The position numbers were made by a program, and so were the translations under genes. Source: Verrucomicrobia bacterium S94 (lineage in GTDB: Bacteria; Verrucomicrobiota; Kiritimatiellia; Kiritimatiellales; Pontiellaceae). Taken from it: a DNA stretch of 64,000 nt. Where the stretch lies: NCBI GenBank assembly GCA_004299845.1, contig CP036201.1:1240001-1304000 (forward strand), given 5' to 3'. Below, piece by piece: positions 8,578-43,451 of this stretch. The first letter of the stretch is position 1; each line of letters begins with the position of its first letter. The notes below the pieces were generated by a model that saw nothing but the letters and a program-made list of their open reading frames with translations, was not told where the DNA came from and did not search any database.

Positions 8578-9725
8578 ATGAGTATTGAACGGGCTAGAGC
8601 GGCAATCCATGGGGAATTAACAGACCGGATACCGCAATGGGATGTGCCGGACTGTCCGGCGCTGGCTGAACAGCTTTTTGACTATGATGTGCAGGCTGAA
8701 CCGCATCGCGCATGCATCGATATGCTGAAATATTTTGACATTGATGTAACCATCAGCAGCATTCCGGGAGATTGTGCCGAATGGAATTTTCCACTGGTCC
8801 GCTATTATGAAGATGCCACGTTTACCGATGACGCAGAGAATGAACGCTACCGCTTTCTCCCCGCGCGCCCTCCCCACGCCCATACACCTCGATGTATGAT
8901 GCTCTGGGCATGAAAGCCCACGGGGCATTCTGGGGATTTTCCCCCACACTTACAATGCAGAACCATCCCTGCTCCACACCGGAAGAGGTTCTTGACTTCA
9001 AACCACTGGAACATTTTACACAAAACCAGGAGGAGCGCATAACTTTCTTTAAAAACCACTATGCTGAAAAACAGCGGCTGCTCGGGGATTCCACCATGGT
9101 GATGGGCTGGTATTATCACACCCTCTTTATGTGGCCGGTTGAACTGTTCGGCTGGGAAAATTTTATGATGGCGGCCATGGACGATCCGAAACGTTTCGGC
9201 GAACTGATTCAGCAGTTTCTGGAGATTTCCAAGCGCGATTTTGAAGCCATCTGCTCCTCACCCGACATTGAGCTGGTGGGATGTCATGACGATCTCTGCT
9301 CCGCATCGGGACCGATGTTTCCTCCCGAATGGTATGACGAGTATATTTTCCCGCACTATAACGAGATTCTGGATATTATCCATTCAGCAGGAAAAAAGGC
9401 TTTTTACTGTTGTGACGGAAACCTGATGCCTCTGCTTGAGCGCATACGGAAATGCGACTTTGATGGTTTGGCGTGCGACGGAAACAATGATCTTGAAACC
9501 GTACTGGACGTCTGGAGCGGTAAAATTATTTTTGCCTGTATGAAAGAACCGAACATCATTAACTTCGGCTCAAAAGAAGAAATCCGGGATATGGTTCGTG
9601 AAACCGCAAAACTGGCGATTAAAGAACCCGGCTATTTTTTTTCGGCCGGCACCATGACCGGCCGAACCCCGCCCGAAAATATCCTGATTTATCAGGAAGC
9701 CGTGCGGAAGTTCGGCAGGAGATAG
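8578..9725 (+). pseudogene. Uroporphyrinogen decarboxylase-family protein, frameshifted
   Basis: Two overlapping plus-strand frames make one gene of about 382 residues. The first frame (from ATG 8578) runs MSIERARAAIHGELTDRIP to NERYRF. The second continues from about 8857 with TSMYDALGMKAHGAFWGFS and ends FGRR at the stop at 9725. This is the URO-D/MtaA-CmuA superfamily, a TIM barrel shared by heme-pathway decarboxylases and by methyltransferases serving corrinoid proteins. Members beside AraC regulators are generally not HemE, so a methyltransferase or lyase role is more likely, but that is inference. A single missing base between about 8853 and 8878 (for example in the TTT or C runs) would repair the frame. 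The break could be a sequencing error. Confidence 0.8.
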
Positions 9726-9744: not shown

Positions 9745-11661
9745 TCAAAGGGGAACCGACCGCTGCGAAAGTTTCGGTCGGGTGGGTGTGACCCGGTCCC
9801 CTTTTTCATTGAAGTAATGCCGCCGGCCCAGCTTATCCAGCTTATGCCGTATATCGAAGAGGAACGAATGCGATTCTGAATGCTGTACAACAACCCCTCT
9901 GGAATCGGTTACCGTGATCAGATAATTTCCGCTGTAACGGACTCCGCGAATCGGCCGATCACCGGGTTTAATGGAGTAGGCCCTTGTTTTAATCGTATCT
10001 CCCAGAACCTCGAAAATCCGGCCGGGCTGCTCTGAAGGAATAAACACCTCTTCGTGCTGGTCGAGCATCACCAGCTTATCTCCATCCGTTTCCTTTCCTA
10101 TGGCATAATATTTCACGGTCAACGGATAATTGTATTCTGCCGGACTCTCCTGTTTAAGTCGTACTCCGAAAGTATTATTCACATCGGGTTCATACGTCAC
10201 CGCATCCCAGTACGGGGTGACCTCAAGCGCCGGAAGGCGACGGGTTTTTGCAATGAAATCGATATTGAATCTCGGAGGCTGTGAAAGCTCAATAAAGGCC
10301 CGGTCTTCTTCGGAGAGACTGCTCATAGGTACTTTTATATTTCTACGACCTTTTACCGGCTTAATCGTTACTGTACCTGCTATATTGGCAACATATTCAC
10401 CCTCGAAGGTCTTACCATCTGCGGTGCTCCACACCCGCGGTCCTTTATAACTTTCCAGCGAGGGTTCCGGGGCAGGTGCCGGCTCCTCCTCTTTGACATC
10501 AGCCAAATCCCCGGAAGAGGGTTCGGGGTCATCAGACGTTTTGTAATCACGGAAGATCGGTCCTGAATCCAGATCAAAATCGCCCTCATACGACCGGGCG
10601 ATGATTTCATCTTTCAGATCCTGGCTGAGTTCCTCTGTTTTAAAGACCGGCAGACAGGGGCCTCCATCAAACGGATTTTCCGGATACTCCTTACCTTCTT
10701 CTTCTACACAGAGAATAAAACAGTTCAGTCCGCCGGAAGGAACCGCAACAATAACCTCCATATTTACAGGCTCACCGGCCTTCAGCTCAATCCAGTCCCC
10801 GGCAACTGAAAAGTTTTTATCCAGGGCATATTTGCGGTACACGGAATGGTCGGAAGGATTCCATAGAGGCAGAGTCATTTGCCAAGGCGTGCCTTCAGGA
10901 TGAGCAACGACCAGGACAATCTCTTTGCCCACCCGTACAATCATCGCATTATCCCCCTGCCCCCAGAAACGGAACTTAATATCTTCCGGATAAACCAGTT
11001 CCCCTTTGTAATGCGCAAACCATCCATATCCGGGAACATCCGCTTCTCCGAAAGCCTCCGGAGCCATTGCAGCCGGCATTGTCGGGAAGGTAAAGGTCGT
11101 GGCATACAACTTCCGGGGAGACCGGTAGTATTTATTCAATACAGATGGTCTCCAGTCGTTTTTAACAAATTTAATAATGGCCTCGCAGGTCTCCTCAATG
11201 CTGATTCCCGGATTTCCAGTGCCGCTCCGCAGACGTTTTGTATCATAAAATGTACCGACAAAATCATTTCCGATACTCTGTGAGGTTCCGAAAATCGTCA
11301 GGTCACTCATATCGGGCATAATATCAAACCCGGCGACATCCCCTCCGGCAAGTCCTTCGCCAATGCCGCTCATTTCCGGAAGCTGAATATCCGGCATGCT
11401 GGCCTTCTGGACTTTCGTGACAATACGTGTAGTGGATCTCGGCTTGGCCGATTTTTTAACCTTCACCTTCGGTTTCTTCAGTTTCATTTTCGGTCGGTCA
11501 ATCGGTTTCGGAGGAACAAACTTCTTTTCCTCTTTCTGAACCACAGAGAAAACAACCAGCAAACCAGCCAATGAAAAAGCGGCTGCGTGGATAATCAAAC
11601 TGAGAACAAACCCACTGGGTGCGCCTTTATTTATCCGGGATACTTTTTTTCTTTTTTTCAT
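9745..11661 (-). CDS. Membrane-anchored TonB-like/PA14-like/SHD1 protein, copy 1
   Basis: This protein of about 638 residues starts at the last of several adjacent start codons, which best fits the GGAAGG Shine-Dalgarno and matches the paralog. One membrane helix (about residues 17-38) is followed by a Pro/Lys-rich stretch (KPIDRPKMKLKKPKVKVKK). That is the layout of the TonB N-terminus, but there is no TonB C-terminal domain. Residues of about 134-322 (FVGTFYDTKR, YYRSPRKLYAT, WFAHYKGELVYPED) look like a PA14-type sugar-binding barrel. Residues of about 408-457 (TADGKTFEGEY to VPMSSLSEEDRAFI) match SHD1. A beta-rich C-terminal domain follows. It probably sits in the inner membrane facing the periplasm. 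Its function is unknown. Confidence 0.75.
   Translation of the reverse strand: MKKRKKVSRINKGAPSGFVLSLIIHAAAFSLAGLLVVFSVVQKEEKKFVPPKPIDRPKMKLKKPKVKVKKSAKPRSTTRIVTKVQKASMPDIQLPEMSGIGEGLAGGDVAGFDIMPDMSDLTIFGTSQSIGNDFVGTFYDTKRLRSGTGNPGISIEETCEAIIKFVKNDWRPSVLNKYYRSPRKLYATTFTFPTMPAAMAPEAFGEADVPGYGWFAHYKGELVYPEDIKFRFWGQGDNAMIVRVGKEIVLVVAHPEGTPWQMTLPLWNPSDHSVYRKYALDKNFSVAGDWIELKAGEPVNMEVIVAVPSGGLNCFILCVEEEGKEYPENPFDGGPCLPVFKTEELSQDLKDEIIARSYEGDFDLDSGPIFRDYKTSDDPEPSSGDLADVKEEEPAPAPEPSLESYKGPRVWSTADGKTFEGEYVANIAGTVTIKPVKGRRNIKVPMSSLSEEDRAFIELSQPPRFNIDFIAKTRRLPALEVTPYWDAVTYEPDVNNTFGVRLKQESPAEYNYPLTVKYYAIGKETDGDKLVMLDQHEEVFIPSEQPGRIFEVLGDTIKTRAYSIKPGDRPIRGVRYSGNYLITVTDSRGVVVQHSESHSFLFDIRHKLDKLGRRHYFNEKGDRVTPTRPKLSQRSVPL
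9747..9805 (+). terminator. Possible terminator of the URO-D-family gene
   Basis: AAAGGGG (9747-9753) pairs with CCCCTTT (9798-9804), around an inner CCGACC/GGTCGG pair, and ends in TTTTT. The structure lies inside the 3' end of the convergent gene, so its role is uncertain. Confidence 0.4.
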
Positions 11662-11680
11662 CATCATCACCTTCCAACGA

Positions 11681-11736
11681 AGAGAACGTTAACATCGTCC
11701 ATGAACATAAATATGTTAACAGGCATACGATGTCAA
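11681..11736 (-). promoter_or_regulatory. Promoter and LacI-type operator of TonB-like copy 1
   Basis: Read on the minus strand, TTGACA (11736-11731) and TATTTA (11713-11708) are 17 bases apart, a good sigma70-type promoter. Just downstream of the expected start lies ATGTTAACGTTCTC (11696-11683). It has the central-CG palindromic form of LacI-family sites. The same box recurs upstream of other genes in this window. Confidence 0.6.
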
Positions 11737-11764
11737 GTCAGCTGGAAGGTAATGATAAAACAGT

Positions 11765-11811
11765 CAAGGAAGAATCAATTCCGGTGAATTTCCGGAATTG
11801 ATTCTTCCTTG
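11765..11811 (-). terminator. Long perfect hairpin between the two TonB-like paralogs
   Basis: A perfect 20-bp stem (11765-11784 with 11792-11811) has a 7-base loop. On the minus strand it is followed by TGACTGTTTTATC. It lies about 100 bases after the stop of copy 2, so it is probably that gene's terminator. GAATTTTCTTTT on the other side would allow it to act in both directions. Confidence 0.65.
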
Positions 11812-11911
11812 CGAATTTTCTTTTGATAGTCGTAATAAATGTGAGGGTTCATCGAGGATGATTGATCTCAGGAAAAGAATATATGTGAACTATTCTTCTC
11901 CTGAAAACGGA

Positions 11912-13846
11912 TCAATCCCAGAATTGTTTCGGTCGATCAAAATCATTCGGTCGCGGAGGAGATACCCGGTTGCCGGTTTTGTCAAAGTGCTTCCCAACCG
12001 GAAGGAGATCAAGGTAGGGTTTTATATCGATCAGCCAGGTTGGAGAACAGCGATACTGAATGATAACCCCTCGTTCGTCAGTGACCGTGATCAGGTGACC
12101 TCCGTATTCCACTCCGCGCAACGGAGCTCGGCCATCATCCCGAATCGCAATAACGCGAGTACGAACCGGTTCTCCCAGGAAAGAAAATTCATGATTTTCC
12201 AATTGGGAGGGAATCACGGTTTCCTCCCGGCGGTCCAGCAACACCCAGTTGTCACCGTCCACTTCAGCGCCGATTGCATAATATTTCACCGTTAACGGAT
12301 GATCATACGGTTCGCGCCCTTTCTGTTTCATCCGGACACCGAAAATATTTTCCTTGTCCGGCGGAAGCGGATCAGCATCCCAATACGGCGTAACTTCGAT
12401 GGTCGGCAGCTGTCTTGTTGTTCTCCGGAAATCAATAATGAATTCCGGAGGACTCAGCAGCTGCATTTCACTGATCGACTCCTCGGAAAGTTCTGACACC
12501 GGCACTTTGATCTGTTTACCCCGGGCCGTTTTGAATACGGCACTGTCACCCATCGTCACGGTATATTCGGCTTCCAGAACTTTGCCGTTTTTCAGCGTCC
12601 ATGCGCGTATACCGTTTTCCGGAGCAACGGTGGGTTCCACCGCGTCAGGGGGAAGTTCGATTTTTTCATACCGAAGATGTTCCGGAATTTCAGGATGCTC
12701 AACTTCAACCCAACCGCCGTTGATGTCATTGAAAACCGGCCCGCCTTCCAGCAACGCATCGGTTTCGTGCAAATGGGCCCAGATCTGCTCTTTCAGATCA
12801 AGACTCAGGCGTTCAGTTTTAAACGCATGAAGTTTAGGACCCAGCCCAAACGGATTTTTATCGTATTCTTTTCCTTCCATTTCCACACAGAGCAGAAAAC
12901 AGGTAATCCCGCCGCTCATTTCGGAAACGATCACTTCCATATCCTGAGGCTCACCCGCCTTAAGATCAATCCAGTCGCCGACGACAGCATAGTTGTTGCC
13001 TAACGGATACCGCCGGCTCATTGACGGATCAGGCGTATCCCAGAGACTCAGAAAATGCGATTCCACATTTTCATTATTTCCGTTCCAACCCGGCCACGAA
13101 GCCAGATTCACAATCTTTCCGTTGACCCGGACACAGATCAGATTGTCTCCCTGTGCCCAGAAGCGGATGCGCGCATCCTCCGGATAGACCAGCTGACCTT
13201 TATAGTGCGCAATCCAGCCGTATCCCGGAATATCCTTTTCCCCGAAAGCCTCAGGGCCCACGGTGGCCGGTACCTGCGGGAACATAAAGGTTGTGGTATA
13301 CAGCTTTCTCGGGGATTTATAATATTTGCTGAATGCAGAAGGTTTCCATCCCCGTTTCATGAAATTCAGAATAGCCTGAATGGTTTCCTCCCGGCTGATT
13401 CCAGCATTATCCGATCCATTACGGAAACGCTTAGTATCGTAAAATGTACCGACAAAATCATTACCGATACTCTGACTCGAACCGAAAATCGAAACCTCAT
13501 CCAGATCAGGCATGATGTCAAACCCGCCTATATCTCCCGCCAGCCCCGCGCCAATTCCGCTCATTTCCGGAAGCTGAATATCCGGCATACTGGCTTTCTG
13601 CACTTTGGTGACAATACGGGTGGTCGATTTGGGTCTGGCCGATTTTTTGACTTTTACCTTCGGTTTTTTCAGCTTCATTTTCGGCCGGTCAACCGGTTTC
13701 GGAGGAACGAATTTTTTCTCTTGCTTCTGAACGACATTAAAAACCACCAGCATTCCGGCAAGTAGAAAAGCCGCTGCATGAATTATAATACTGATAATAA
13801 AACCGCTCGGTGCACCTTTATTGATTTTAGCGTTTCTTTTTTTCAT
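11912..13846 (-). CDS. Membrane-anchored TonB-like/PA14-like/SHD1 protein, copy 2
   Basis: This 644-residue protein is a tandem paralog of the gene that follows it. The first 150 residues are nearly the same: a membrane helix, a Lys/Pro-rich arm, KASMPDIQLPEMSGIG, and SIGNDFVGTFYDTKR. The PA14-like region (YYKSPRKLYTT, WIAHYKGQLVYPED), an SHD1-like segment (TLKNGKVLEAEYTV to VPVSELSEESISEM) and the beta-rich end also align, with more divergence toward the C-terminus. The ATG at 13846 follows GGAGAG. The strong conservation of the anchor and arm suggests that these bind a shared partner, while the outer parts differ. The function is unknown. A canonical TonB is unlikely, because the TonB C-terminal domain is missing. 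Confidence 0.75.
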   Translation of the reverse strand: MKKRNAKINKGAPSGFIISIIIHAAAFLLAGMLVVFNVVQKQEKKFVPPKPVDRPKMKLKKPKVKVKKSARPKSTTRIVTKVQKASMPDIQLPEMSGIGAGLAGDIGGFDIMPDLDEVSIFGSSQSIGNDFVGTFYDTKRFRNGSDNAGISREETIQAILNFMKRGWKPSAFSKYYKSPRKLYTTTFMFPQVPATVGPEAFGEKDIPGYGWIAHYKGQLVYPEDARIRFWAQGDNLICVRVNGKIVNLASWPGWNGNNENVESHFLSLWDTPDPSMSRRYPLGNNYAVVGDWIDLKAGEPQDMEVIVSEMSGGITCFLLCVEMEGKEYDKNPFGLGPKLHAFKTERLSLDLKEQIWAHLHETDALLEGGPVFNDINGGWVEVEHPEIPEHLRYEKIELPPDAVEPTVAPENGIRAWTLKNGKVLEAEYTVTMGDSAVFKTARGKQIKVPVSELSEESISEMQLLSPPEFIIDFRRTTRQLPTIEVTPYWDADPLPPDKENIFGVRMKQKGREPYDHPLTVKYYAIGAEVDGDNWVLLDRREETVIPSQLENHEFSFLGEPVRTRVIAIRDDGRAPLRGVEYGGHLITVTDERGVIIQYRCSPTWLIDIKPYLDLLPVGKHFDKTGNRVSPPRPNDFDRPKQFWD

Positions 13847-13864
13847 TTCTCTACTCTCCAGAAG

Positions 13865-13916
13865 GTGAACGTTAACATAGCAAAGCCGATCTTATTCAGA
13901 ATCTATCCAAAAGCAT
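13865..13916 (-). promoter_or_regulatory. LacI-type box and CTATCC site upstream of TonB-like copy 2
   Basis: GTGAACGTTAACAT (13865-13878) is the same central-CG box found before copy 1. ATCTATCCAAAAG (13901-13913) lies further upstream and recalls the CTATCC sites near 17505, 21898, 53054 and 60830. Both lie in the 74-base gap after the Asp-box gene. Confidence 0.45.
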
Positions 13917-13920
13917 AATT

Positions 13921-16900
13921 TCAGTTTAATGTCACCTGAACCCGATAAAACCGATTGGTGGCATCCTCTCCGTCCACTATTTCAATGGGCTCACCCGTTC
14001 CCGGTATCTTTTCCCACCATGTGCTCCAGCCCTCGGTAAGGTCTTCCGAGATATCAATGCTGTACAGCCTGTTTTCAGCGGAGCCGAAAGTCAGCCGGTT
14101 GCCACTTCCGGAATCCGGAGCAAGTGCGAGGGTTAAATTAGAGGCATGATTTGCAGGGTCAGAACCGATGATATATTCCTGTCTGCTATCAAATCCGTCA
14201 TTGTCCGCATCCGCAAACATACTCATAGTCTCCTGCCCAAGCATCCAGTCCCAGAACAGTTCCGGCGGATTTCCGGTGCGAAGGCCCGATATGTCTGCCC
14301 GGAAAAATCCGGTACCATGCAGGCACATCCACAGGACATCCGGATCATGCGGATCAGGCTGAATTTTCCGTATTCCGTCCGGCTGACCATGCCGATTATT
14401 GATTTTAAACCAGTTCGCCCCGCCATCGATTGTTACGTAGGCCCCGGGATTCCGCCGACTAACCGTTGTATTGTTCTGAACACAGGCCACAATCACATCG
14501 GGATCCGCTTCAGAAGCCTCGAAATATCTGAGATACGGCATATCAAACAGTAGATGCCAGCTGGCCCCGCCGTCCTGACTCACATAGCCGCCGCCGGTTG
14601 AACCATTGTAATCTCCGCAGGCCATGTAGATATTTCCGTTGGAATGGAATTTAACATTGTTTACACTCCGGATTCCGGCCGGAATGGAAACCGGCTGCCA
14701 ATTAGCTCCACCATCGACAGTTTTATACAGCCCGCCAGCCTGACCGTTGTGCGTTTCATTCAGTGCGGCAAAAACCGTCTGGGAATCCGCCGGATCCATA
14801 GCCATACGATAAACGCTGCAACCGGCCGGAAGTCCGTTGGTAATCATACTGAAACTCAACCCGCCATCGGTGGATTTATAAATACCGTGCGGAAAGTCGT
14901 CGGATCCATCACCGAACTGACGTCCGTTATTAACAAAATTACCAGACCAGCGTTCCCACTCGGAAAATGGAATACAGAAATAGATGTTGTCTGCATTCTG
15001 ATGATCAATCATCAACGAGCGGAAATCCAGAACATCGTTGCTGCCCGGAAAACTCACTGGTGTTGATATTGAACTCCAGGTATCGCCTCCATCATCCGAA
15101 AAAAGCAGTTCCCCCCTATAATCCTGCCGGAAAGGAATCATATACACACGATTTCGATTCTGCGGATCGGTAGCGATGGTTGAAATGGAAAGCGCGCTGT
15201 TATCGGAAATACTCTGCCCCGTAAGCTGCTCCACCGCAATCGCACCCGGATAAACCAAATCCCCGTCATCGGTATTCCGCCACAGGCCATGCTCTCCGCT
15301 GCCCCAGAGATAGGTGCCCGGCGTACCGGTCTCCAGACAGAAGGTTTCTCCGGGCAGATTACTGTTTCCCCGTCCTACCCAATGACCGGAACCTGAATAG
15401 GTTTCATCGTCATCAATCTGCATCCAGCTTTCGCCGTGATCTGTTGAGCGCATCATCTGCTGAGCAAAACAGGTATAAACCTCGCCGAGCTGATTGCAGA
15501 ACACAAAGCGCGGACCGGACTGGGTCTGATCATGTTCATAATGCTCCCGGTGCACATGGGCCATCTGAACATTGGCTCCCATCGGTTGAATAGCCCGGGC
15601 ATTCCAGTAATCCGAATCCACGCCGTTCACCCAGTACTGCCCTTCACGGGCCGCAGCATACCAGTTGGTGCCTCCGTTTTGCGTCATCCAGATATTTCCC
15701 GGCGGGAACGCATAGTCGTGTTTATAGTTATGCGAGAGATAGATCCGGTTTTTATCGGTTGGGTCAACGGCAATCCGGGTGAACTGGCTGAACGTATTCG
15801 TAGGCTCATTGTATGCAGTATAAAAATCGTTGTACGACATCGTCAGTTTATTCCACCAGAGCACCGCCCTGCGGAATTTATCGCGATATCCCCAGCTGCT
15901 GATCTGCGACATATCAATGCCCAGGTCTCCGGTCAGATTTTCCCAGCTGGTCCCGCCGTCCGCACTGCGGTAAATCCCCCCTGTCGTCTGAATATCCGAC
16001 CCGACAATCTCATAGCCCGTGACGGCGAGATAATAGAGCAGAAATTCATCGCCACCGTCATAATAATATTCGAGATCACGCGGCGGGTTGGTGGTCAGTC
16101 CCCCACCGCTGACCTGTGTCCAGTTCATACCGCCGTCCGAGCTTTTGAACAATCCATACTGACAGCTGGCATAAACGGTATCCGAATTCCGGGGGTCAAC
16201 AATGATTTTACTGAAATCCTCATCGCCCTGCGGAAAGTTTATTTTTATCCAGCTCTGTCCGCCATCAGTGGATTTCCGGATATAGCCGGCGGAATAATTA
16301 CCGTCGCTGGAATAATGCAGCCCGTCTTTGGTCCAATGAGTGGATTTGATCATCCAATGCTGACCCGCGCCGATATACCACACCTGATCATTGTTCGGAT
16401 CCACCGTCAGCACACTGTGCATCTGCGAATTATCGGTTTCAATATCGAGAATAAAATCCCAGTTCAATCCCCGGTTTGTGGTGGAATAAATTCCCTCCTT
16501 CGCCATCATCAGGCCGAAATCCGGATTCTGATACGAAAATTCAATTCCGGTAATACCGCCAGGCAGCCCGTTGCCATCGGTATCTTTATACGTATGCCAG
16601 TATTCGCCACGATTTAATGTCACGTGCCCATTACCCATATCGAGCTGGTCATACATGCAGTTCGGATCCCCATTATTGATCCAGAATTTATCAATATACC
16701 CCGACATCCCCGGCCCAAAGTGCTGCCACTTCACCAACGGCGTGGATAAAACAACCTCACTTTTCAAGGTTTCAAACCAGGCCGTATCCAATGACGGCAA
16801 CGGCGAAACATCTTCTGCAGCCAGTTCAAAATGAATGTTATCAATATAAAGGTAGTCATTCAGAGCCGCCGCATTCTGATCAATTCCGATAAACGGATGC

Positions 16901-17424
16901 GCTTCATTCACATCCGTTTCTATAAAATCGGAAATAAGGCCGGTGTATTCAATATGGTGCTGTCCGGCACTCAGCGTTGCCTGACTGAAATCCGTCGGTC
17001 CGTTCCCTCCCTCGCCATTCAGTTGAAAACGCGGCTGAATATCACCGACCGCAACCGTCAGTTCTGATGGAATATAGAGATCAAATGAAAAGATATATGC
17101 ATTGGTGGACGAAAGCTGACTGAAGGTAAGTGTTGAAGAGGATCGCAGCGCAGTAAACGCATTATCCCCCGTTGATAGCCGAAGGAACCGACCCGATGCC
17201 AGCGTAAAAGCAGAGGCTGCCGCCGCATCCGTTGTTGCATCCACAATAATGCCACTACCGGTATTTGCGGTCTGCACCACCGTGCCCGCAAGCGTCTGAT
17301 TATTACCCGCTGTTTCACCCAGCACTGCGCCCTCGAAATCCTCACTCCAGATAACCTGCGCATAGATCTGTGCAGTCAGTAATGTACAGCATATTCCAAT
17401 CAAACCTGAATTCATCATAAACAC
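13921..17424 (-). CDS. Large secreted Asp-box (GH74-like) protein, copy 1
   Basis: This protein of 1167 residues has a signal peptide (residues 1-22, ending QIYAQ). Next comes a jelly-roll-like domain (FEGAVLGETAGNNQTLAG to IDNIHFEL, about residues 28-205), then a long region with about a dozen Asp-box repeats. Examples are STDGGQSWIKI, SSDGGMNWTQV, SADGGTSWENL and TVDGGANWQPV. This is the look of GH74/sialidase/Vps10 propellers. A glycoside hydrolase acting on a decorated polysaccharide is possible, but no catalytic pair can be assigned safely. The tail, from about residue 1072, reads DADNDGFDSRQEY and ends FYRVQV. The GTG at 17424 has the better Shine-Dalgarno spacing (GAGG, 6 bases); ATGs at 17418 and 17415 are alternatives. 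It is a paralog of the next gene upstream. Confidence 0.8.
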   Translation of the reverse strand: MFMMNSGLIGICCTLLTAQIYAQVIWSEDFEGAVLGETAGNNQTLAGTVVQTANTGSGIIVDATTDAAAASAFTLASGRFLRLSTGDNAFTALRSSSTLTFSQLSSTNAYIFSFDLYIPSELTVAVGDIQPRFQLNGEGGNGPTDFSQATLSAGQHHIEYTGLISDFIETDVNEAHPFIGIDQNAAALNDYLYIDNIHFELAAEDVSPLPSLDTAWFETLKSEVVLSTPLVKWQHFGPGMSGYIDKFWINNGDPNCMYDQLDMGNGHVTLNRGEYWHTYKDTDGNGLPGGITGIEFSYQNPDFGLMMAKEGIYSTTNRGLNWDFILDIETDNSQMHSVLTVDPNNDQVWYIGAGQHWMIKSTHWTKDGLHYSSDGNYSAGYIRKSTDGGQSWIKINFPQGDEDFSKIIVDPRNSDTVYASCQYGLFKSSDGGMNWTQVSGGGLTTNPPRDLEYYYDGGDEFLLYYLAVTGYEIVGSDIQTTGGIYRSADGGTSWENLTGDLGIDMSQISSWGYRDKFRRAVLWWNKLTMSYNDFYTAYNEPTNTFSQFTRIAVDPTDKNRIYLSHNYKHDYAFPPGNIWMTQNGGTNWYAAAREGQYWVNGVDSDYWNARAIQPMGANVQMAHVHREHYEHDQTQSGPRFVFCNQLGEVYTCFAQQMMRSTDHGESWMQIDDDETYSGSGHWVGRGNSNLPGETFCLETGTPGTYLWGSGEHGLWRNTDDGDLVYPGAIAVEQLTGQSISDNSALSISTIATDPQNRNRVYMIPFRQDYRGELLFSDDGGDTWSSISTPVSFPGSNDVLDFRSLMIDHQNADNIYFCIPFSEWERWSGNFVNNGRQFGDGSDDFPHGIYKSTDGGLSFSMITNGLPAGCSVYRMAMDPADSQTVFAALNETHNGQAGGLYKTVDGGANWQPVSIPAGIRSVNNVKFHSNGNIYMACGDYNGSTGGGYVSQDGGASWHLLFDMPYLRYFEASEADPDVIVACVQNNTTVSRRNPGAYVTIDGGANWFKINNRHGQPDGIRKIQPDPHDPDVLWMCLHGTGFFRADISGLRTGNPPELFWDWMLGQETMSMFADADNDGFDSRQEYIIGSDPANHASNLTLALAPDSGSGNRLTFGSAENRLYSIDISEDLTEGWSTWWEKIPGTGEPIEIVDGEDATNRFYRVQVTLN

Positions 17425-17540: not shown

Positions 17541-20500
17541 TCAGTCGGAAATTTTAAGCTCAAGTTTGAAAAACTGCTGATTCTCTATATCCGTAACCGT
17601 ATTGGTGATTAACTGTATAACAGAATCAACTGTTCCGGTTCCGGAGACCGTATAGCCGGAACTGCTCCAGCTGTCGGAAGTCAGATTGGTTGAAGTCAAA
17701 AGTTCATAGTTCAACCCCGCTGTTTCCGCATCAACGCGTTTGCGGTACACATATGCCACCCCGGCTTCACTGCTTTCAACGGCCGGATAGATTTCGGGGT
17801 CATCCTCGATCGGATTTCCACCCAGCGCATATTCCGTAAGATTCTGCAGCCCATCCTGATCCGGATCGTCTTCAAAACCGGTTTCACTGCCGATATCCGG
17901 AAATGCACCGACCCATGCCGCGTAGTATGCTACCGGATTGGTGGAAAAATGATGCAGCTCCAGATACGGCGCAAACTCTCCGCCATTAAATTCCTTCGAA
18001 TGGATCTGCATATTCTCCTGTGAATCCGATAGCAGACCGAAGGTAAGCTGACCGTCCCCGCTGATCGAGGAAGTGACATCAATACCATACCACAGGCCTG
18101 AACCGGCAACCCGGATACTGCCGACTTCGGCCCCCAGATCATTCTTTGAATTATACGTTACCGTAGCTTCGTCCCATCCACTGGCAGCAGTATATGCCGT
18201 AATGGTGGCATTACTGAATGTTTTGCTGTGCAACCACAACACCGCATTACTCACCATTCCGTCAATCTGAGAAAGATCAAACTGGACATAGGCATGGCGC
18301 GGAAGATCCGCATCCAGTTTCAGCGCGGTATTGCTCCCGAAGTTACCGTCCGGATCGGTACCTTTCACATCCGCATCATCCATAGCGGCAAACGTTCTCG
18401 ACCACAGAACACCTGAAGGAACAGCTGCCAGATTCAGAATCGCCCGGCTGCTCTGCCCGTTTCCGTCATCGGCCTGGACCTGACACGTATACATCGTTTC
18501 TCCGTCCGCCGGTGGAGTGCCGCTGAGCGTGCCGTCTTCGGCCACATTCAGCCAGTCCGCCCCCCAGACTTTTGAATAGATGATTGCATCCCCGTTTCCA
18601 TCTGAAGCTTCGCCGGCGATGGAATCCCAATAGGCCGTTCCCGGTTCCAGATTAAACCGCTCAATCACAGAATCTGCAAACTGCGGTGCCACATTGTTCG
18701 TATCAATCAGATCAGCCCGCAGCCAGCCGCATCCCTGAGTTGAAACATAATAGCGGTCGCGAACCACCTGATCGATCGCAATATCATTCACCCGGTCCGA
18801 CTGCGGGTTTCCGGTGTTGATTTTACTCCAGCTCAAACCTCCGTCTTTCGAAAGATAAGTCCCCGGGTTCTGAATATCGGAAGTCCCCTTACTGTTCATC
18901 TGAACCAGAATAACATCCGGATCATACACAGCGGTTTTAGTCATACGCGCCCAATGCGTTTTAAAGATCTGCGACCAGCTTTCGCCGTCATCATCACTCA
19001 TCCAGACCCCGCCTTTGTCGACATCATAATCACTGTGCTTCCCGCATGAGACATACATTTTTCCATCACTGGAAAAATGCAGATCCGACACACTGTAAAT
19101 CTGTTCCGGCAGCTTTGTATACTTCGACCACGAAGCCGCATTGTCGGTCGAAATGTAGAGTCCTCCATTGTCACCATATACACAGGCATACAGGTTTGAG
19201 CTGTTTTCCGGATCCAGCCGCAGAGCAACCACATCCTCCGACGGCAACCCGTTATTGGCCCATTCCCAGCTGAGCCCGCCATCCGTACTCCGGCGTACTC
19301 CGGTTGTCAGACTGATCTGCGGATCCCAGGTATAGCCATGCACTGCAGCATCGTCCGGCACGCAGAAAAACATGTAATCGGGATCATCCGGATTTATCGT
19401 CAGACAGAGTTGATCGATACTGTCATTTTCCGACTCGCCCGGCGGCCATTCCAGCGCCACACCGTGTTCCACAAAGGTCTGTCCGCCATCGGTGGATTTA
19501 AGCAGGTCCCCGGCGGATGCCTGACGGAACTGCAAAGTATAAATAATGTTGGTATCAGTCGGATGAATCGCAACATCCGAACAGGAATATTCAGAACTGC
19601 CCATTTCCACACGCCGCGCCGCCTGGTAACCGGAACGCACGGAATCACCGCCCGGTTCAATCACCCAGAAATCATTTTCACCACTGGGCAGAAAAATCGT
19701 ATCGGGAAAACGCGGGTCCTGTTTAAGTCCGTGTCCCGGCAGATTGCTGTTCTCTGCCGCCACCCAGATTTCCGAACCCGGAGTCACTTCGATTTCATCA
19801 ATCTCCTCCCAGGTATCGCCGCCGTCCATTGAAACCACCAGCGTTTTCGCCCACTGAAACATCAGCATGGTGCCGTCGGCATTGAACTCAATAGCCGAAC
19901 CGGCCTTGCGTTCATAGGAATCACGCTGTTCCCACTTTTTCTGGCCACGCAGAAACATATTGTGTTCGGTCGGATTTCCCCGCCCTTCCCAATAGCTTTT
20001 ATGCGTTCCTTCCCAGGCGGTTCCATTGCGGAGCGTGGCATACCAGTGCGCCCCGCCGTCATCCGTCCGCCAGACCATTCCGCCTCGAAACGTTGTTGAA
20101 CCGCCGTAGTGTTTATAATCGTTGAGAATAAAGATTTTATCGGCGTCGTTCGGATCAACCCGAACCATGCTGAAATTATTCAGCAGATTTGTCGGATACA
20201 CAGTATAAACCGATTCCGCATCAGAAATGCCGAACCATTTTTTCAGCGCATTGAAATACGAAGTCTTAAACAGATAATCGGATTTCAGCACCGAAATATC
20301 CACACCGAGATCCCCGTTGATATTCTGCCACGATTCCCCTTCATCCAGACTCCGGAAAATGCCGCCGCCGGCATTGGTTACCGTATTTCCGGCATCCGCC
20401 CAGATCACCTGATCAACGGCATATAAGGTGATCTCCCCGGAGGATGAATCATAATGCATATCAAATGAACGGATTATATCATTATCGAGCCCGGCGCCCG

Positions 20501-21830
20501 TTTTATGCACCCAGACAGATCCGCCGTCCGTGGTTTTATACAGCCCATACGTGGTCGCCGCCCAGACGGTATCCGCATCTTCAGGATGAACAATAATCCG
20601 GACAATACAGGCATCCGGATTAATTCCCGCCGGGGTGATATCGCTCCAGGTCGCCCCCTGATCCTCGGTTTTCCATATTTTAGCCTCATGCCCGGAAGCG
20701 GAACCATAGCCATGAGGATTTGCTGCTGTGAAAAAATATTTATTGCGGTCATTGATGTCACCCGATCCGACATACCAGATCTGATCGTCCGTCGGCGCAA
20801 CGGCAATAGTATTCAGTCGCTTACCATCCCATATGGATTCGGTCGACGTCATGCGCGTCCAGGTTTTTCCCCGATCCGTCGTTTTATACAGTTTTGATTC
20901 CGCTTCGCGGGAACAGAATCCCAGATCCGGATGCTGCCGCGAAAAATCGGGGGAATTGATTTCACTCGGTCCACGGTCATCAAAAGCATGCCCTTTTCCA
21001 TCATAATCCAGAATACCCTCATACGTGGTGCCCCGGTCCACAGACCGATAGGCATTGCCCATGTTGGGTCCCAGAAAGACAACATCCGGATCGGTCGGAT
21101 GCCAATAGACCCGGTAATTGTTGCCTGACATACCGGGGCCGAACTGACGCCACACAATCGAAGGATCGGACTCCACCCGCTCCGTCCGCAGCGTTTCAAA
21201 CCAGGCATCATTGGGGGGCACTTCCAATGAACCGACCTCAAAACGGATATTATCCAGATATAAATAATTGGTCAAAACCGCTCCATCCTGGTCAATACCG
21301 ATAAACGGACGTGCTTCATCCACATCTGTCGTAATAAAATCGGAAATCAGCCCGCTGTATTCCACATGATGCTGACCGGCACTACCTGTCGCCTGCGAAT
21401 CATCAACCGGCCCGTTTTCTCCTGCACCGTTCAACCTGAAACGGGGCTGGATATCCCCCACAGGATTGACGACTGCTGAGGGTAGATAGAGATCAAATGA
21501 CAAGGTATACGTATTGGTGTTTGATACCTGATCAAATTCAATCGGATTCAATGAAGGACGTATTGCAGCAAAAGCATTATCATCACAGGAAAGTCGGAAA
21601 AAATTTCCCGAAGCCAGCGAAAAAGCTGCGGCCGCCGCCGGGTCCGTTGCCGCATTCACCACGGTACCGGAGGCCCCATTGGCTGTCTGAACCACGGAAC
21701 CCGCAAGTGTCTGATTATTGCCGGATACAGCGCCAACTGCGGCCGACTCGAAATCCTCTTCCCAGATCACCGCCGCCTGAATGGAAATACAGGTGGACAT
21801 CATCAGAGCTGTGTTGATGTGCAATCGCAT
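17541..21830 (-). CDS. Large secreted Asp-box (GH74-like) protein with DNRLRE domain, copy 2
   Basis: This protein of 1429 residues has a signal peptide (MRLHINTALMMSTCISIQAA). The N-terminal jelly-roll-like domain (FESAAVGAVSGNNQTLAG) and the Asp-box region (TTDRGKTWTRM, TEDQGATWSDI, TTDGGSVWVHK, SMDGGDTWEEI, STDGGLSWEWA and others, about 12 in all) match copy 1. The C-terminal half adds an Ig/cadherin-like domain (PQFADSVIERF to VQADDGNGQSSR). A DNRLRE-type domain follows (VKGTDPDGNFGSNTALKLD to HAYVQFDLS). The tail, from about residue 1322 (DPDQDGLQNLTEY), ends FFKLELKI. It is probably a surface or secreted glycan-active or glycan-binding protein; catalysis is not proven. It lies just downstream of a sulfatase operon terminator and has its own upstream boxes. 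Confidence 0.8.
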   Translation of the reverse strand: MRLHINTALMMSTCISIQAAVIWEEDFESAAVGAVSGNNQTLAGSVVQTANGASGTVVNAATDPAAAAAFSLASGNFFRLSCDDNAFAAIRPSLNPIEFDQVSNTNTYTLSFDLYLPSAVVNPVGDIQPRFRLNGAGENGPVDDSQATGSAGQHHVEYSGLISDFITTDVDEARPFIGIDQDGAVLTNYLYLDNIRFEVGSLEVPPNDAWFETLRTERVESDPSIVWRQFGPGMSGNNYRVYWHPTDPDVVFLGPNMGNAYRSVDRGTTYEGILDYDGKGHAFDDRGPSEINSPDFSRQHPDLGFCSREAESKLYKTTDRGKTWTRMTSTESIWDGKRLNTIAVAPTDDQIWYVGSGDINDRNKYFFTAANPHGYGSASGHEAKIWKTEDQGATWSDITPAGINPDACIVRIIVHPEDADTVWAATTYGLYKTTDGGSVWVHKTGAGLDNDIIRSFDMHYDSSSGEITLYAVDQVIWADAGNTVTNAGGGIFRSLDEGESWQNINGDLGVDISVLKSDYLFKTSYFNALKKWFGISDAESVYTVYPTNLLNNFSMVRVDPNDADKIFILNDYKHYGGSTTFRGGMVWRTDDGGAHWYATLRNGTAWEGTHKSYWEGRGNPTEHNMFLRGQKKWEQRDSYERKAGSAIEFNADGTMLMFQWAKTLVVSMDGGDTWEEIDEIEVTPGSEIWVAAENSNLPGHGLKQDPRFPDTIFLPSGENDFWVIEPGGDSVRSGYQAARRVEMGSSEYSCSDVAIHPTDTNIIYTLQFRQASAGDLLKSTDGGQTFVEHGVALEWPPGESENDSIDQLCLTINPDDPDYMFFCVPDDAAVHGYTWDPQISLTTGVRRSTDGGLSWEWANNGLPSEDVVALRLDPENSSNLYACVYGDNGGLYISTDNAASWSKYTKLPEQIYSVSDLHFSSDGKMYVSCGKHSDYDVDKGGVWMSDDDGESWSQIFKTHWARMTKTAVYDPDVILVQMNSKGTSDIQNPGTYLSKDGGLSWSKINTGNPQSDRVNDIAIDQVVRDRYYVSTQGCGWLRADLIDTNNVAPQFADSVIERFNLEPGTAYWDSIAGEASDGNGDAIIYSKVWGADWLNVAEDGTLSGTPPADGETMYTCQVQADDGNGQSSRAILNLAAVPSGVLWSRTFAAMDDADVKGTDPDGNFGSNTALKLDADLPRHAYVQFDLSQIDGMVSNAVLWLHSKTFSNATITAYTAASGWDEATVTYNSKNDLGAEVGSIRVAGSGLWYGIDVTSSISGDGQLTFGLLSDSQENMQIHSKEFNGGEFAPYLELHHFSTNPVAYYAAWVGAFPDIGSETGFEDDPDQDGLQNLTEYALGGNPIEDDPEIYPAVESSEAGVAYVYRKRVDAETAGLNYELLTSTNLTSDSWSSSGYTVSGTGTVDSVIQLITNTVTDIENQQFFKLELKISD

Positions 21831-21970: not shown

Positions 21971-23407
21971 CTAGGGGTTAAAGGTGCTTTTGGCCTTCGG
22001 TTTATAGCCTTCCTTTTTAGCGGCTTCCGGAACAGCCTGTTCGAAAAAGGCATCCCGTTTTTTATGATAATCCTTATAGCCCAGCAACCGGCAGGCAACA
22101 TTGTCCTCATTCCATTTTTCCCACGCGGCACGCAGTGCTTCGGCACGTTCAGGCTGCTGTGCAAGCAGATCGTTGGATTCGGATACATCGTCGGGCAGAT
22201 AGTAAAGTCGCGGTCCTTTACTGTCGCGATCCTGCATATGTTTCGTTCCGTCGGAAGCCAGAACCGACCAACTGTTTCCTCCCCGCCAGAACAGTGCTTC
22301 ATGTGGAGCATCCTTTTTCCGCCCCGTCGCATACGGCAGCAGATTTACCCCCTCCATCGGTTTTCCATACAGGGGATCACCACCGGCGATTTCAACCGCC
22401 GTCCGACCGATATCCAGCGAAATGACCGGATAGCGATAGCGTTTGCCTTTCGGAAGTTTACCCGGCCAGTTTGCCATAAACGGCACATGCACACCGCCGT
22501 CGTACAAATTACCTTTCCCGCCCCGGAAAGGGCCGTTCGAAGATCCGTTCCAGCCCCCGGTTTTACCGTCCCTCGGCTGCGGACCGCCGTTATCCGCAGT
22601 GAAAAACACTAACGTGTTTTCCCGTATACCGTTTTTTTCCAAAGCCTCGATTATTTCACCGATTCCCTGATCCATTACATCAACCATAGCGCAATAAATG
22701 CGGCGCTTCCGGTCTTTAATATGTGAATAACGGGCAATATCCTCCTCCGGTGCCTGTTGCGGCGCATGCGGGCAGTTAAACGATACAAACAAGAAAAAGG
22801 GGTTGTCCCTGTTGTTTTCTACGAAACGAACCGCATCCCTGCTCAGTGCAGTCGTCAGATAACCATCAAATCCGGCCGGTTGCTTATTGCGCACCAGCCC
22901 CTGCAGATAGCCCTCTTTCACCGGAGCCGTCAGGTCAATCCGGAAATAGTCATGTCCACCGCCGAGAAAGCCGTAGAAATAGTCAAATCCACGGTTCAAT
23001 GGATGAAATCCCTCTGCGGCTCCTAAATGCCATTTACCGATTACACCGGTGGTATAGCCCACTTTCTGCAGGCGCTCCGCAAAGGTAATTTCATTGGGAT
23101 CGAGTCCCATGACCGTGTTAGCCGGATCATAGGCCGGATTGGTTTCAAATCCGAACCGGTGCTGATACCGACCGGTAACAAACGCCGCACGGCTCGGAGC
23201 ACAGAACGGATGATTGGCATACCCCTGTTCAAACACAACGCCTTCGGAAGCCAGTTGATCCAGGTTCGGGGTCTGTATCTCTTCCGACCCCGTAAACCCT
23301 GTATCTCCGAACCCCATATCATCCGCCATAATGACAACAATATTCGGTTTGTCCGCTGCGTAAACCGCTGTTGAAAGCAACGCTAACAGCAATAATCCTT
23401 TTTTCAT
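21971..23407 (-). CDS. Secreted sulfatase (CAPSR type)
   Basis: This 478-residue family S1 (formylglycine) sulfatase begins with a signal peptide ([18 protein letters not shown]). It shows the metal-binding start [15 protein letters not shown], the active-site motif CAPSR at 69-73 (the cysteine becomes formylglycine), GKWHLG near residue 125, [10 protein letters not shown], and the late metal site FFTADNGG. The enzyme removes sulfate esters from a sugar; the exact sugar and position cannot be read from the sequence. It resembles the sulfatase at 47129 in length, in the [10 protein letters not shown]-like start and in the ALFWR region. It follows the 613-residue sulfatase by 10 bases, so the two form an operon. 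Confidence 0.95.
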
Positions 23408-23417
23408 AATGTACTCC

Positions 23418-25259
23418 TTAGATTGATGGAATCAGCCGGGCCGGAATATCCAGCTTACGATCATGAGCCCCTTTGGCAAAATCAGTAATTACATAGTCAT
23501 TCGGATGTTTCCAGTCGCACTCCACCCGGCCGTCACCCAGTGTGATACGCCCCAGTTTATTTCTGAACCAGTCGGCCAGTGCAGCATATTCCGGATCATA
23601 GGCTACATTGTTCTGTTCTTTCGGATCCACACGAAGATCAAACAGAACCATTTCAACTTTTTCCCGCGGTGCTTCCAGTGCCCATTTAATATTTACACCC
23701 GGTTTATCGCCCCATTTCTCGCCGGGCTTTCCGTTCTTTTCACGGTTGCGCATAGAGAAGGCAAAGTCATCGCACCGCAAATAACAGCGAGGACCGATCA
23801 CATGGTTCATTTCGCCGATCACATAATCCCGGCTGCTTTTTCCGGAAAGCGTCTCATCCAGCGGAATACCGTCAAGATGCGCATAGGCTGCGTTTTTCAG
23901 ATCAGCCCCTCCGACCCGCAGAAACGTCGGTGCAAAATCAACAAACTCAACCCAGTCGGTACAGATCTTTCCGGCCGGCCACTTTTTCTTATCGGAAGAA
24001 ACCGCAATAACCGCACAGTGATTCGATTTATCGTACGGTGCAAATTTTGATGTTCCGCCCTGCTCGCCCAGATGCCAACCGTGGTCTCCGATCACATACA
24101 GAATCAGCCAGTCACGACCCTGATTTTCACTGTATTCTTTGAATGCTTCGACCGACTGTCCAACGAGGTGATCGCCCATGGCACAAAAAGCATAATAATC
24201 GCGAATCGACTGTTTTTTATCCTCTTCGGCCATATCCGCAAAATTGGTTTTTTTAAACCAAAGCTGCAGCTGCGGCGGGAGTTTTTCAAGTTCCTCTTTA
24301 CTGAAATCCGGAACGTGATACGGGATTTCCTTCTCTTTTGCTATGAAGAGATCGCGAAACGCTTTTGAAGGAATGATCGGGGTATGAGGAAAATGGAACC
24401 CCAGATGAACAAACAGCGGCTTGTCCGAGTCCGGTCCTGTCATTTTCGTTCCATACGGTGGGGTATATTGTCTGCCGACGTTCTGCAGAAACGCCGCCAT
24501 TGAACCGGCAATGTGACCATCCATCGTATGTTCAGTACTGGAAGGGCTCTGCCCTCCGATAATCAGACCTGAGGTATCCCGCTTATAGGCATAAAGAATA
24601 TCCAGTTTTTCCTCAGCCTCGTTCTTAACGGCCGCGTTCGCCGCATCCATTTCACCGTTAACCGGGATGTAGTAATCAAGCACCTCATCCTCAAAACGCC
24701 AACGCACTCCCGAACCGGTCTTTTTACCCTTCGCCCATTTCGTGTATTTGCTCCAGTCAGCAAGCCCGCTGTCAGTAATATCGCGCAGACTGACGTCATG
24801 CTGATAAAAATCGATTTTATCATATTTCCGCGGACTGTTTTTAAAGACGTAGTATCCGGTCTTCCCGAATGAAGCAGTCGTATACCCGAGATCCGCCATC
24901 ATCTCAGGAACAAACGGCTTACTGAATGCAGTATCACGATGCGACGTTTCAAAGCCGTAATGACCGCTGTGATGCGGATACATTCCGTAATGCATCGACG
25001 TACGGCTCGGTGCACACCCCGGCGAATTACAGTAGGCCCGCGTAAACAGAACCCCCTCTTCCGCCAGTTTATCCGTCTCCGGCGACATCACAAACCCCAG
25101 AGCGCTGTAAGGCTGCCCTGTTGTCGCCCGGTTATAGGCCTGGACGGAATCCGCCCGGTGATCGTCCGTAATGATCCAAAGTATATTAGGCTGTTCTTTC
25201 GCAGCAACAGCTCCGGCAACAGCCCATATACCCAGCGCCATTTTCAACATTGTTCTCAT
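23418..25259 (-). CDS. Secreted sulfatase (CAPSR type, long form)
   Basis: This 613-residue family S1 sulfatase has a signal peptide ([13 protein letters not shown]). Key features are [19 protein letters not shown] at 82-86 with the modified Cys82, GKTGYYVF in place of the usual GKWH, and the metal site [12 protein letters not shown]. The long form, with the TDDHR start and the GDHGW motif, is shared with the sulfatases at 39643 and 41610. These three are probably one subfamily acting on related linkages. The mature enzyme must be activated by a formylglycine-forming enzyme or anaerobic sulfatase-maturing enzyme, which is not in this window. It is the first gene of a two-sulfatase operon. Confidence 0.95.
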
Positions 25260-41609: not shown

Positions 41610-43430
41610 TTAAAGCTTCAGTTTTTTATCATCCGCACCCGGTGCAAAATTACTTCGGTAAACCTTCGTGCCCAACGCCTTCGGGCCGCCCCAGTCAACT
41701 TCAATCCGATTGTCACCCAGCACAATGTTCAACAGCTTCTGCTGCATCGTTTCAGCAATTGCCCTGTATTCGGGATTATGTGCCAGATTGTTAAGCTCCC
41801 CTGGATCGGAAACCATATGATACAGAGCCGGATCAAGTTCCTTCCAGGATGCCGTACGAGCCCAGTCCATATTACTGCCGCGTTTTTTATCCGGCCGGGT
41901 CTGCATTGAGAATACATACTCCTTCGTCCGGATAAAGGCGCGCGGTCCCGTAACGGCATGACTCTCGCCGATCACATAATCGCGGGGCGGAATCCGGCCG
42001 GACACCATATCCGCCAGGTTATACCCATCCAGATAATCGAACCGGTCATTTTTCAGATCCGCACCGGCGGCGGCCAGACAGGTTGGTGCAATATCCACAA
42101 ACTCCATAAATTCCCGAACCACTTTCCCCGCCGGAAATTTCTTTTTATCGGAGGAGACCACGATAATCGGATTATGACTGTCGATATCCCAGGGAGTAAA
42201 TTTGGATACGGAACCGTGATCGTTCAGCTTCCATCCATGGTCGCCGCAGACATACACAATCATCCAGGGCTGCTCATGTTTTTCACTGTAGGCAATAAAG
42301 TCATCCACTGCCCGCCCCACCAGGGAATCTCCATACGCGCAGAACGCATAATAGTCCTGAATCATAGCCTGCTTTTCGGCGTCGGTAAAATGATCCGAAG
42401 CTCCCATCGTAACCGCTTTCTGCAGCTGTTTCGGCATGGATTCAAATTCCTTTCTGTTGGTTTCCGGAACCTTATACATATGTTTCCGGAAACGCGCCCG
42501 GTAGTCCGCCGGCGGCAGCACCGGGGTGTGCGGAAAATCATACCCCAGATGGGTGAACAACGGTTTTGACGGATCAACCCCCTGCACCGTCTGCGATCCC
42601 ACATGAAAGGTCTTGTTCTCATTTTTCAAATACTGTCCGAAAACCGTCGTGTACCAGCCGTCGCGCGTTTTTCCGGCCGGCTGCGAACTCACGCCGGACA
42701 GAATGGAACCGCTGTCCGGGCGTTTCGGTTTCTTTGCGTTATAGTGGCGCAGCAGATCATATTTTTTCATTGTTGCTTCCGCAGAACCGGCATATTCCGG
42801 AAAGCGTTTTTCCAACTCAAGCGAGGCATATTCAAACCGGCCTTCCGGAGTCACAAAAAAACGGACATTTTGAAGCGGCGGATTAATTTTTTTGCCTTCA
42901 AACTCGAAGAACCAGTCTTTCCCCCATCCGGTCAGACCGTCTTTAGCCATCGTCTTGAAATCCACATCAATCTGATAAAGCGGCGCTTTCTTCGTCCCGT
43001 TACCCGTAATGGTTTTCTGACGCACACCCAGTTTGCCCACATGAAAGGTCTGATAGCCCAGCGTTGCCATTTGTTCCGGCAGCGACGGTTTCCAGTGTTC
43101 CGCATTATTATTATGATATTCAAATTCATAAACTCCGGAACGGAACGGATAACGCCCGTAATGCATCGATGCCCGCGACGGCGCGCATCCCTGCGCCTGA
43201 CAGTAGGTATTGATAAATGTCGTGCCCATTTCTGCCAGCCGGTCCGTCTGCGGCGATTCCACATAGCCCAACGGGCTCATCTCTTCACCCGTCAGCATTT
43301 TATTAAATGCACGGATCGAATCATAGCGATGATCATCCGTCAGAATCCATAATACATTCGGCTTCGCCGGTTTGGCATACCCCTGAACCGCAAATGCTCC
43401 TAAAATGACGCATATCATTATCTTCTTCAT
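41610..43430 (-). CDS. Secreted sulfatase (CAPSR, long form), copy B
   Basis: The ATG at 43430 is preceded by GGAG at good spacing and opens a clear signal peptide ([19 protein letters not shown]); an ATG at 43442 would only add MERL. The 606-residue protein has [24 protein letters not shown] with Cys82, [11 protein letters not shown], and the metal site [13 protein letters not shown]. It aligns with copy A along its length; the middle part (about residues 150-260) differs most. It is therefore the likely specificity region. It lies 21 bases after the CNPSR sulfatase at 43452 and is probably co-transcribed with it. Confidence 0.95.
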
Positions 43431-43451
43431 TAGACGCTCCATCCTTCCGGA

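Follow-up and report, generated by a model that had tools for sequence, protein, structure and literature searches.

What is the function of two adjacent proteins that begin like TonB, the arm which carries energy across the bacterial double membrane, and that end in domains of another kind? The proteins are encoded in a stretch of 64,000 nucleotides from Verrucomicrobia bacterium S94 (assembly GCA_004299845.1, contig CP036201.1, positions 1,240,001 to 1,304,000), hereafter the window, and the genome from which it was taken is called the source genome; L and G numbers are labels of loci and genomes, respectively. Both genes are located on the minus strand, as are all features of theirs described below. 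Protein 2 (11912..13846) consists of 644 amino acids and protein 1, its tandem paralogue (9745..11670), of 638-641 depending on the start codon, and they share 57% identity over 643 aligned positions. We consider it rather probable that they are TonB-like transducers coupled to the proton motive force, with heads of a glycan-binding type and with several such arms per motor, and that they probably act in polysaccharide capture or import.

Each protein has one strongly hydrophobic helix at about residues 16-40, and no other segment is equally hydrophobic. In protein 2, the helix (13727..13801; assigned from hydrophobicity and from motif conservation among homologues) contains SIIIH, that is S19-x3-H23, and in protein 1 (11536..11610) it contains SLIIH, both of which are versions of the Ser-x3-His motif, the part of TonB and TolA that contacts ExbB or TolQ (PMC12215075). 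After the helix follows an arm rich in Lys, Arg and Pro (18 Lys plus Arg and 8 Pro per 60 residues), which together with a post-arm segment covers residues 41-97 of protein 2 (13556..13726) and positions 11365..11535 in the case of protein 1. A TonB_C profile (PF03544) run over the source genome matched five places elsewhere and none at the window pair. A preliminary description of this DNA had spoken of tandem TonB-like proteins without a TonB domain, anchored in the inner membrane and with a TonB-like reach, and both statements are supported here. Cleavage of the helix as a signal peptide was also considered and is judged unlikely, given that a charged arm follows immediately on the helix, that the buried His is invariant, and that separate SHD1 halves (see below), by contrast, do start with signal-peptide-like sequences.

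Of 63 homologues whose N-half is complete, all have the helix His (63/63) and 60 have the Ser four residues earlier, and each arm that shows the full N-half profile retains the His, whether it is linked to a motor or not. Mean column conservation among the source-genome paralogues is 0.84 in the helix, 0.94-0.95 (94-95%) for residues 41-97, and 0.63 in the PA14 region. Comparing protein 1 with protein 2, identity amounts to 88% in the arm and to 100% for residues 75-97, and beyond residue 97 it falls to 69% in a Gly-rich linker, 60% in PA14, 36% in SHD1 and 51% in the C-terminal part. The preliminary description was thus right that the outer parts drift, while its claim that the arm and the 60 residues after it are nearly unchanged went too far, as near-identity stops at about residue 97. 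Silent changes are found for 33-53% of the identical residues in the arm segments versus 43-74% elsewhere and, being about as frequent in the arm as in the remainder, they indicate that the near-identity of the arm is due to purifying selection and not to recent copying; recent gene conversion was rejected because silent-site differences in the arm are not clearly reduced. This pattern bears on the main rival explanation, according to which the proteins are passive scaffolds, that is inner-membrane-anchored posts for glycan binding or enzyme docking in the periplasm, for which the motor is no longer used and the arm is a spacer. Such a post would have no need to keep a buried His and its Ser partner, its arm would not be the most conserved segment, and retention of the His by all arms with the full N-half profile would not be expected.

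With regard to the heads, single-sequence searches of the window proteins with Pfam and NCBIfam hidden Markov models were nearly blank (SHD1 at an E value of 0.094 at best, and no match for PA14, PF07691), and therefore tests at the level of the family and of structure were needed. The SHD1 profile matches 23 of 34 homologue C-halves (best E value 3.5e-10), and the PA14 profile matches 7 of 38 homologue N-halves at E values up to 0.1 (best 1.4e-5), the copy at L094 scoring 25.4 bits with a cut-off of 24. A profile made from the C-half family finds the solved SHD1 domain of Sla1 (2hbp; E value 2.2e-6), and no PA14 match was obtained when PDB sequences were searched with a profile. In an AlphaFold2 model of protein 2, built with only two relatives, residues 411-630 mostly have predicted local distance difference test (pLDDT) values of 80-90; a search of viral contigs for extra homologues for structure prediction had returned none. 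Alignment of the model with VIA-align gave a Z of 9.7 over 61/66 residues for the Sla1 SHD1 domain, Z of 6.5-7.6 for PA14 domains and, for the C-terminal end, Z of about 6.9 with immunoglobulin-like (Ig-like) sandwiches, and the top PDB matches in Foldseek include the PA14-bearing GH3 beta-glucosidases 3ac0 and 7pjj, with an anti-sigma PA14 protein and protective antigen at lower ranks. When the PA14 domain of the homologue L097 was modelled alone, its core had pLDDT values of about 65-80 and the best match was the PA14 sugar-binding domain 6m8m (Z 11.4, 154 residues), the rest of the list being mostly PA14 domains. On the basis of these predictions, the PA14-type and SHD1 folds can be regarded as established for the family, with a weak PA14 model for the window protein itself; both domains had been proposed in the preliminary description, and the beta-rich end noted there appears in the predicted structure as an Ig-like beta-sandwich. 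In protein 2, the PA14-type domain would comprise residues of about 124-345 (12812..13477; from the predicted structures of this protein and of L097), the SHD1 domain residues of about 411-465 (12452..12616; from the family profile and the predicted structure) and the Ig-like end residues of about 466-630 (11957..12451; from the predicted structure), and alignment to protein 2 places the corresponding parts of protein 1 at 10633..11283, 10279..10443 and 9772..10278. We infer that the PA14-type head may bind glycans. At a candidate calcium-lectin site, the equivalence of which to the Flo5 site is not established, 20 of 38 members carry an Asp-Asp pair.

The domain order had been called unusual, but it is not rare: of 388 genomes sampled in the phylum, 109 contain relatives of the N-half, with the SHD1 half seemingly limited to Kiritimatiellales in this sample. 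In the sister family and for some copies of the source genome, the protein is encoded by two adjacent genes, one for the N-half with helix, arm and PA14 and the other for the C-half with SHD1 and the Ig-like end. The occurrence of the same halves in split and fused forms suggests that they are functionally tied, and the signal-peptide-like sequences with which the separate C-halves start indicate that SHD1 is periplasmic. The arm is also combined with vWA-like heads (e.g., L082, L084, L107 and L110, of which only L084 has a weak vWA profile match, the others having been assigned by eye) and with a squalene-cyclase-like head (at L093 and, judged by similarity, also at L117).

Some further arrangements were seen. 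The squalene-cyclase-like toroid heads sit on Ser-x3-His arms (L093:9554-12832 and L117:8404-8805), in tandem in G031, and represent a third head type. In G006 (L094:7654-10195), the PA14-headed arm is the second gene behind ExbB-ExbD-ExbD, after a vWA-headed one, and each of the two has, by eye, an N-terminal SAM domain before the Ser-x3-His helix. In a frame at L112:7933-8259 (G180), a similar arm, which lacks the His, belongs to a long protein that by eye is of the YfbK-type vWA kind and ends in LysM. Secreted proteins with little beyond the same PA14-type domain, and with neither helix nor arm, are encoded at L208, L209 and L215.

Is there a motor for these arms? Inspection of the surroundings of homologues for ExbB and ExbD genes revealed an ExbB-ExbD-ExbD cluster directly upstream in relatives, and together with the Ser-x3-His motif this makes the case for coupling stronger than could be seen in the preliminary description. 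About a dozen loci, which come from several families within the phylum, have a family member behind such a cluster. ExbB-ExbD-ExbD lies upstream of the arm at L087, L088, L097 (the Kiritimatiellales record JAIPJC010000025, with the arm directly behind), L108, L109, L160, L096/L121 and L120, and the arm follows directly in G081 (two loci), G052, G141, G184 (of the same genus), G178 and G134. Beyond these, in the phylum at large, the cluster is found upstream at L206, L207 and L212 (genomes G305, G223 and G309), and at L211 (G360) the motor is 2.2 kb from the arm. Most motor-linked loci have genes for TPR proteins upstream, in the order TPR, TPR, ExbB, ExbD, ExbD, arm.

In the source genome, no ExbB/ExbD genes are located near arms. 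The motor closest in sequence to the PA14-linked ones lies at 1737-1738 kb, its ExbB being 83% and 78% identical to those of L097 and L160, respectively, and its ExbDs 67-77%; no arm follows it, and tblastn searches for arm remnants behind the three arm-less motors found none. Of 18 genomes from the genus, most of which possess at least six arms each, 17 have a single ortholog of this ExbB (72-95% identical), and G184 and G188 are the only ones in which the motor adjoins an arm. In a tree of the N-halves, motor-linked and orphan copies are not separated and the supported branches force at least four changes of label, indicating that motor linkage changed repeatedly. That almost every genome of the genus conserves the motor without an arm linked to it argues against the scaffold explanation. 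Judged from sequence comparisons, coupling of the arms to a motor appears well supported, and one motor for many arms would be the simplest reading of the gene counts. Elsewhere in the source genome, a 501-amino-acid protein with an SVLLH helix is encoded directly behind a fourth ExbB-ExbD-ExbD (L101:9100-10605; source genome 3496100-3497605), and the ExbB of one arm-less cluster is distributed over two frames (2169653-2170431, L099), probably due to a frameshift or an assembly error.

The source genome has about nine PA14 arms, scattered and mostly amid sulfatase and glycosidase genes, and about 80 sulfatase matches in all. A sulfatase is found at a distance of at most 5 kb from 4 of 7 arm loci, where 0.86 would be expected (P 0.006 with random placement and 0.013 with rotation). 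The window pair forms the downstream end of a same-strand run that includes two sulfatases and two secreted BNR propeller proteins, and the neighbours of further paralogues comprise GH16, a sulfatase, a GLAA-B galactosidase, GH2, a porphyranase-like protein and CBM6.

In the transducer reading favoured here, the N-terminal Ser-x3-His helix would dock onto the ExbB-ExbD-ExbD proton motor, the Lys/Pro arm would extend into the periplasm, and the head, made up of the PA14-type, SHD1 and Ig-like parts, would probably grip a polysaccharide, or else a partner in its import that resides in the outer membrane or the periplasm. The motor would then pull on it, with transport presumably directed inwards. 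The motor at 1737-1738 kb would be common to the PA14 arms, which now lie outside the motor operon and mostly in different polysaccharide loci, perhaps with one arm per substrate. A more specific proposal, namely that one ExbB-ExbD-ExbD motor with interchangeable glycan-binding arms, one per polysaccharide locus, pulls polysaccharides into the periplasm as neither a SusCD nor a classical TonB-receptor system, is put forward tentatively. Uptake of large sulfated polysaccharides by Verrucomicrobiota/Kiritimatiellota is still poorly understood, and a motor-driven arm with a lectin-fold head that has multiplied and lies mostly among degradation genes is a testable candidate for the missing energised step.

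Several observations weigh against the transducer reading. The nearest arm in the source genome is 486 kb away from the motor, so coupling in trans has to be assumed, and of five genes for TonB-receptor Plug domains in this genome none is near an arm, leaving no linked outer-membrane partner. Only the Ser-His half of the SHLS motif is kept, its later Leu and Ser being absent. PA14-headed relatives that lack the helix His exist (L096, L116, L120, L095, L118 and L200-L205); L095 and L118 have Asn in its place, the L200-L205 group has none, and L096 and L120 lack the His even though they stand behind ExbB-ExbD-ExbD. For the window protein itself, the model of the PA14 region is poor (pLDDT about 60 or below), the cleaner model being that of the homologue L097, which is 51% identical in this region, and both window proteins have Asp-Asn at the candidate site instead of the Asp-Asp pair. 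Finally, the proximity to sulfatases lacks significance under rotation (P 0.11) when the distance is set at 11 kb.

The position of the source-genome arms far from a motor and amid secreted sulfatases and glycosidases, as well as the loss of the His in some relatives, are what passive scaffolds would lead one to expect, and set against the conservation of motif, arm and motor described above they leave this explanation unlikely. Still less likely, in our view, is a transducer for envelope maintenance or surface movement like Tol-Pal or the myxobacterial Agl-Glt/Nfs systems, in which the PA14 head would grip peptidoglycan or an exported polymer instead of a nutrient. The gene order TPR, TPR, ExbB, ExbD, ExbD, arm of the relatives recalls Agl-Glt/Nfs (PMC3858216), and one paralogue, at 542 kb, has housekeeping surroundings with no sulfatase within 30 kb, but most of the expanded copies reside in polysaccharide-degradation loci. 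A transmembrane sugar sensor resembling clostridial anti-sigma factors with PA14 sensor domains is very improbable and already disfavoured: PA14 domains of an anti-sigma factor domain-containing protein of C. clariflavum (6qdi, 6qe7) are among the best structural matches, but with no more than about 15 residues ahead of the helix a cytoplasmic signalling domain is absent, and a TonB-like arm with ExbB/ExbD synteny is not expected of a sensor.

The principle on which the transducer reading relies, a force transducer with a head other than that of TonB, is already known; new are the PA14 head, the expansion in copy number and the genomic placement. The vWA force transducers of the Planctomycetes-Verrucomicrobia-Chlamydiae (PVC) group, first seen in Tichowtungia aerotolerans and of unknown function, possess an SHLS-type helix and a disordered Pro-rich arm of about 100 residues, and their gene lies behind TPR-tolQ-tolR-tolR (Mol Biol Evol 2025, msaf138; PMC12204202); PA14 or SLA1/SHD1 are not mentioned in that work. 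The present proteins resemble them in helix (Ser-His half only), arm, non-TonB head and motor synteny in relatives, and several homologues with the same arm are vWA-headed, whereas the PA14, SHD1 and Ig-like head, the many dispersed copies mostly in polysaccharide loci, the single unlinked motor, and an SHD1 half that can be a separate secreted protein are different. The range of heads described for non-TonB force transducers is thereby widened from vWA to include at least PA14, and there are signs of a squalene-cyclase-like head as a third type. With the E. coli-type TonB and its ExbB/ExbD, they have in common the Ser-x3-His helix, the Lys/Pro arm and the ExbB/ExbD partner in relatives, but they differ in the absence of TonB_C, in having two different ExbDs and in lacking a linked TonB-dependent receptor.

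In Myxococcus, the Agl motor (AglRQS) is common to the paralogous glycan-associated Glt and Nfs complexes (PMC3858216) and thus provides a precedent for one proton motor serving several glycan-associated transducers; in this comparison, made through the literature only, the output differs, being gliding or spore-coat assembly. The PA14 lectin domains of the RTX adhesin 6m8m, MpAFP (5j6y), Flo5 and Epa1 have the same fold according to predicted structure, but identities are only about 8-16%, the window proteins are without the Asp-Asp pair, and the fusion to a TonB-like arm is distinct. For the mucin-uptake loci of Akkermansia, a member of the same phylum compared by description only, MUL2 is pilus-based, MUL1 has been described as Sus-like, and periplasmic glycan accumulation has been proposed (PMC13174399). 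In a limited collection of papers, no description of PA14 with ExbB/ExbD in this phylum was found.

The neighbours upstream of the window pair, all on the minus strand, are a secreted BNR/Sortilin-Vps10 propeller protein (13921..17424), a BNR propeller protein with CBM96 (17541..21830) and the two sulfatases (21971..25259). Just upstream of both window genes (11670-11720 and 13846-13890), a short repeat, GTTAACGTTC, possibly represents a shared operator; it was not seen upstream of the remaining paralogues. At 8578-9725 of the window, a gene of the uroporphyrinogen-decarboxylase family, for which no counterpart was seen at the syntenic position of G061 (L092), is present as two overlapping open reading frames (111 and 277 amino acids), probably as the result of a frameshift. 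A fused paralogue at 41939-43812 of the source genome (L009, L010, L077:9873-11830) shows a change of frame near residue 216 and is either a broken gene or an assembly error.

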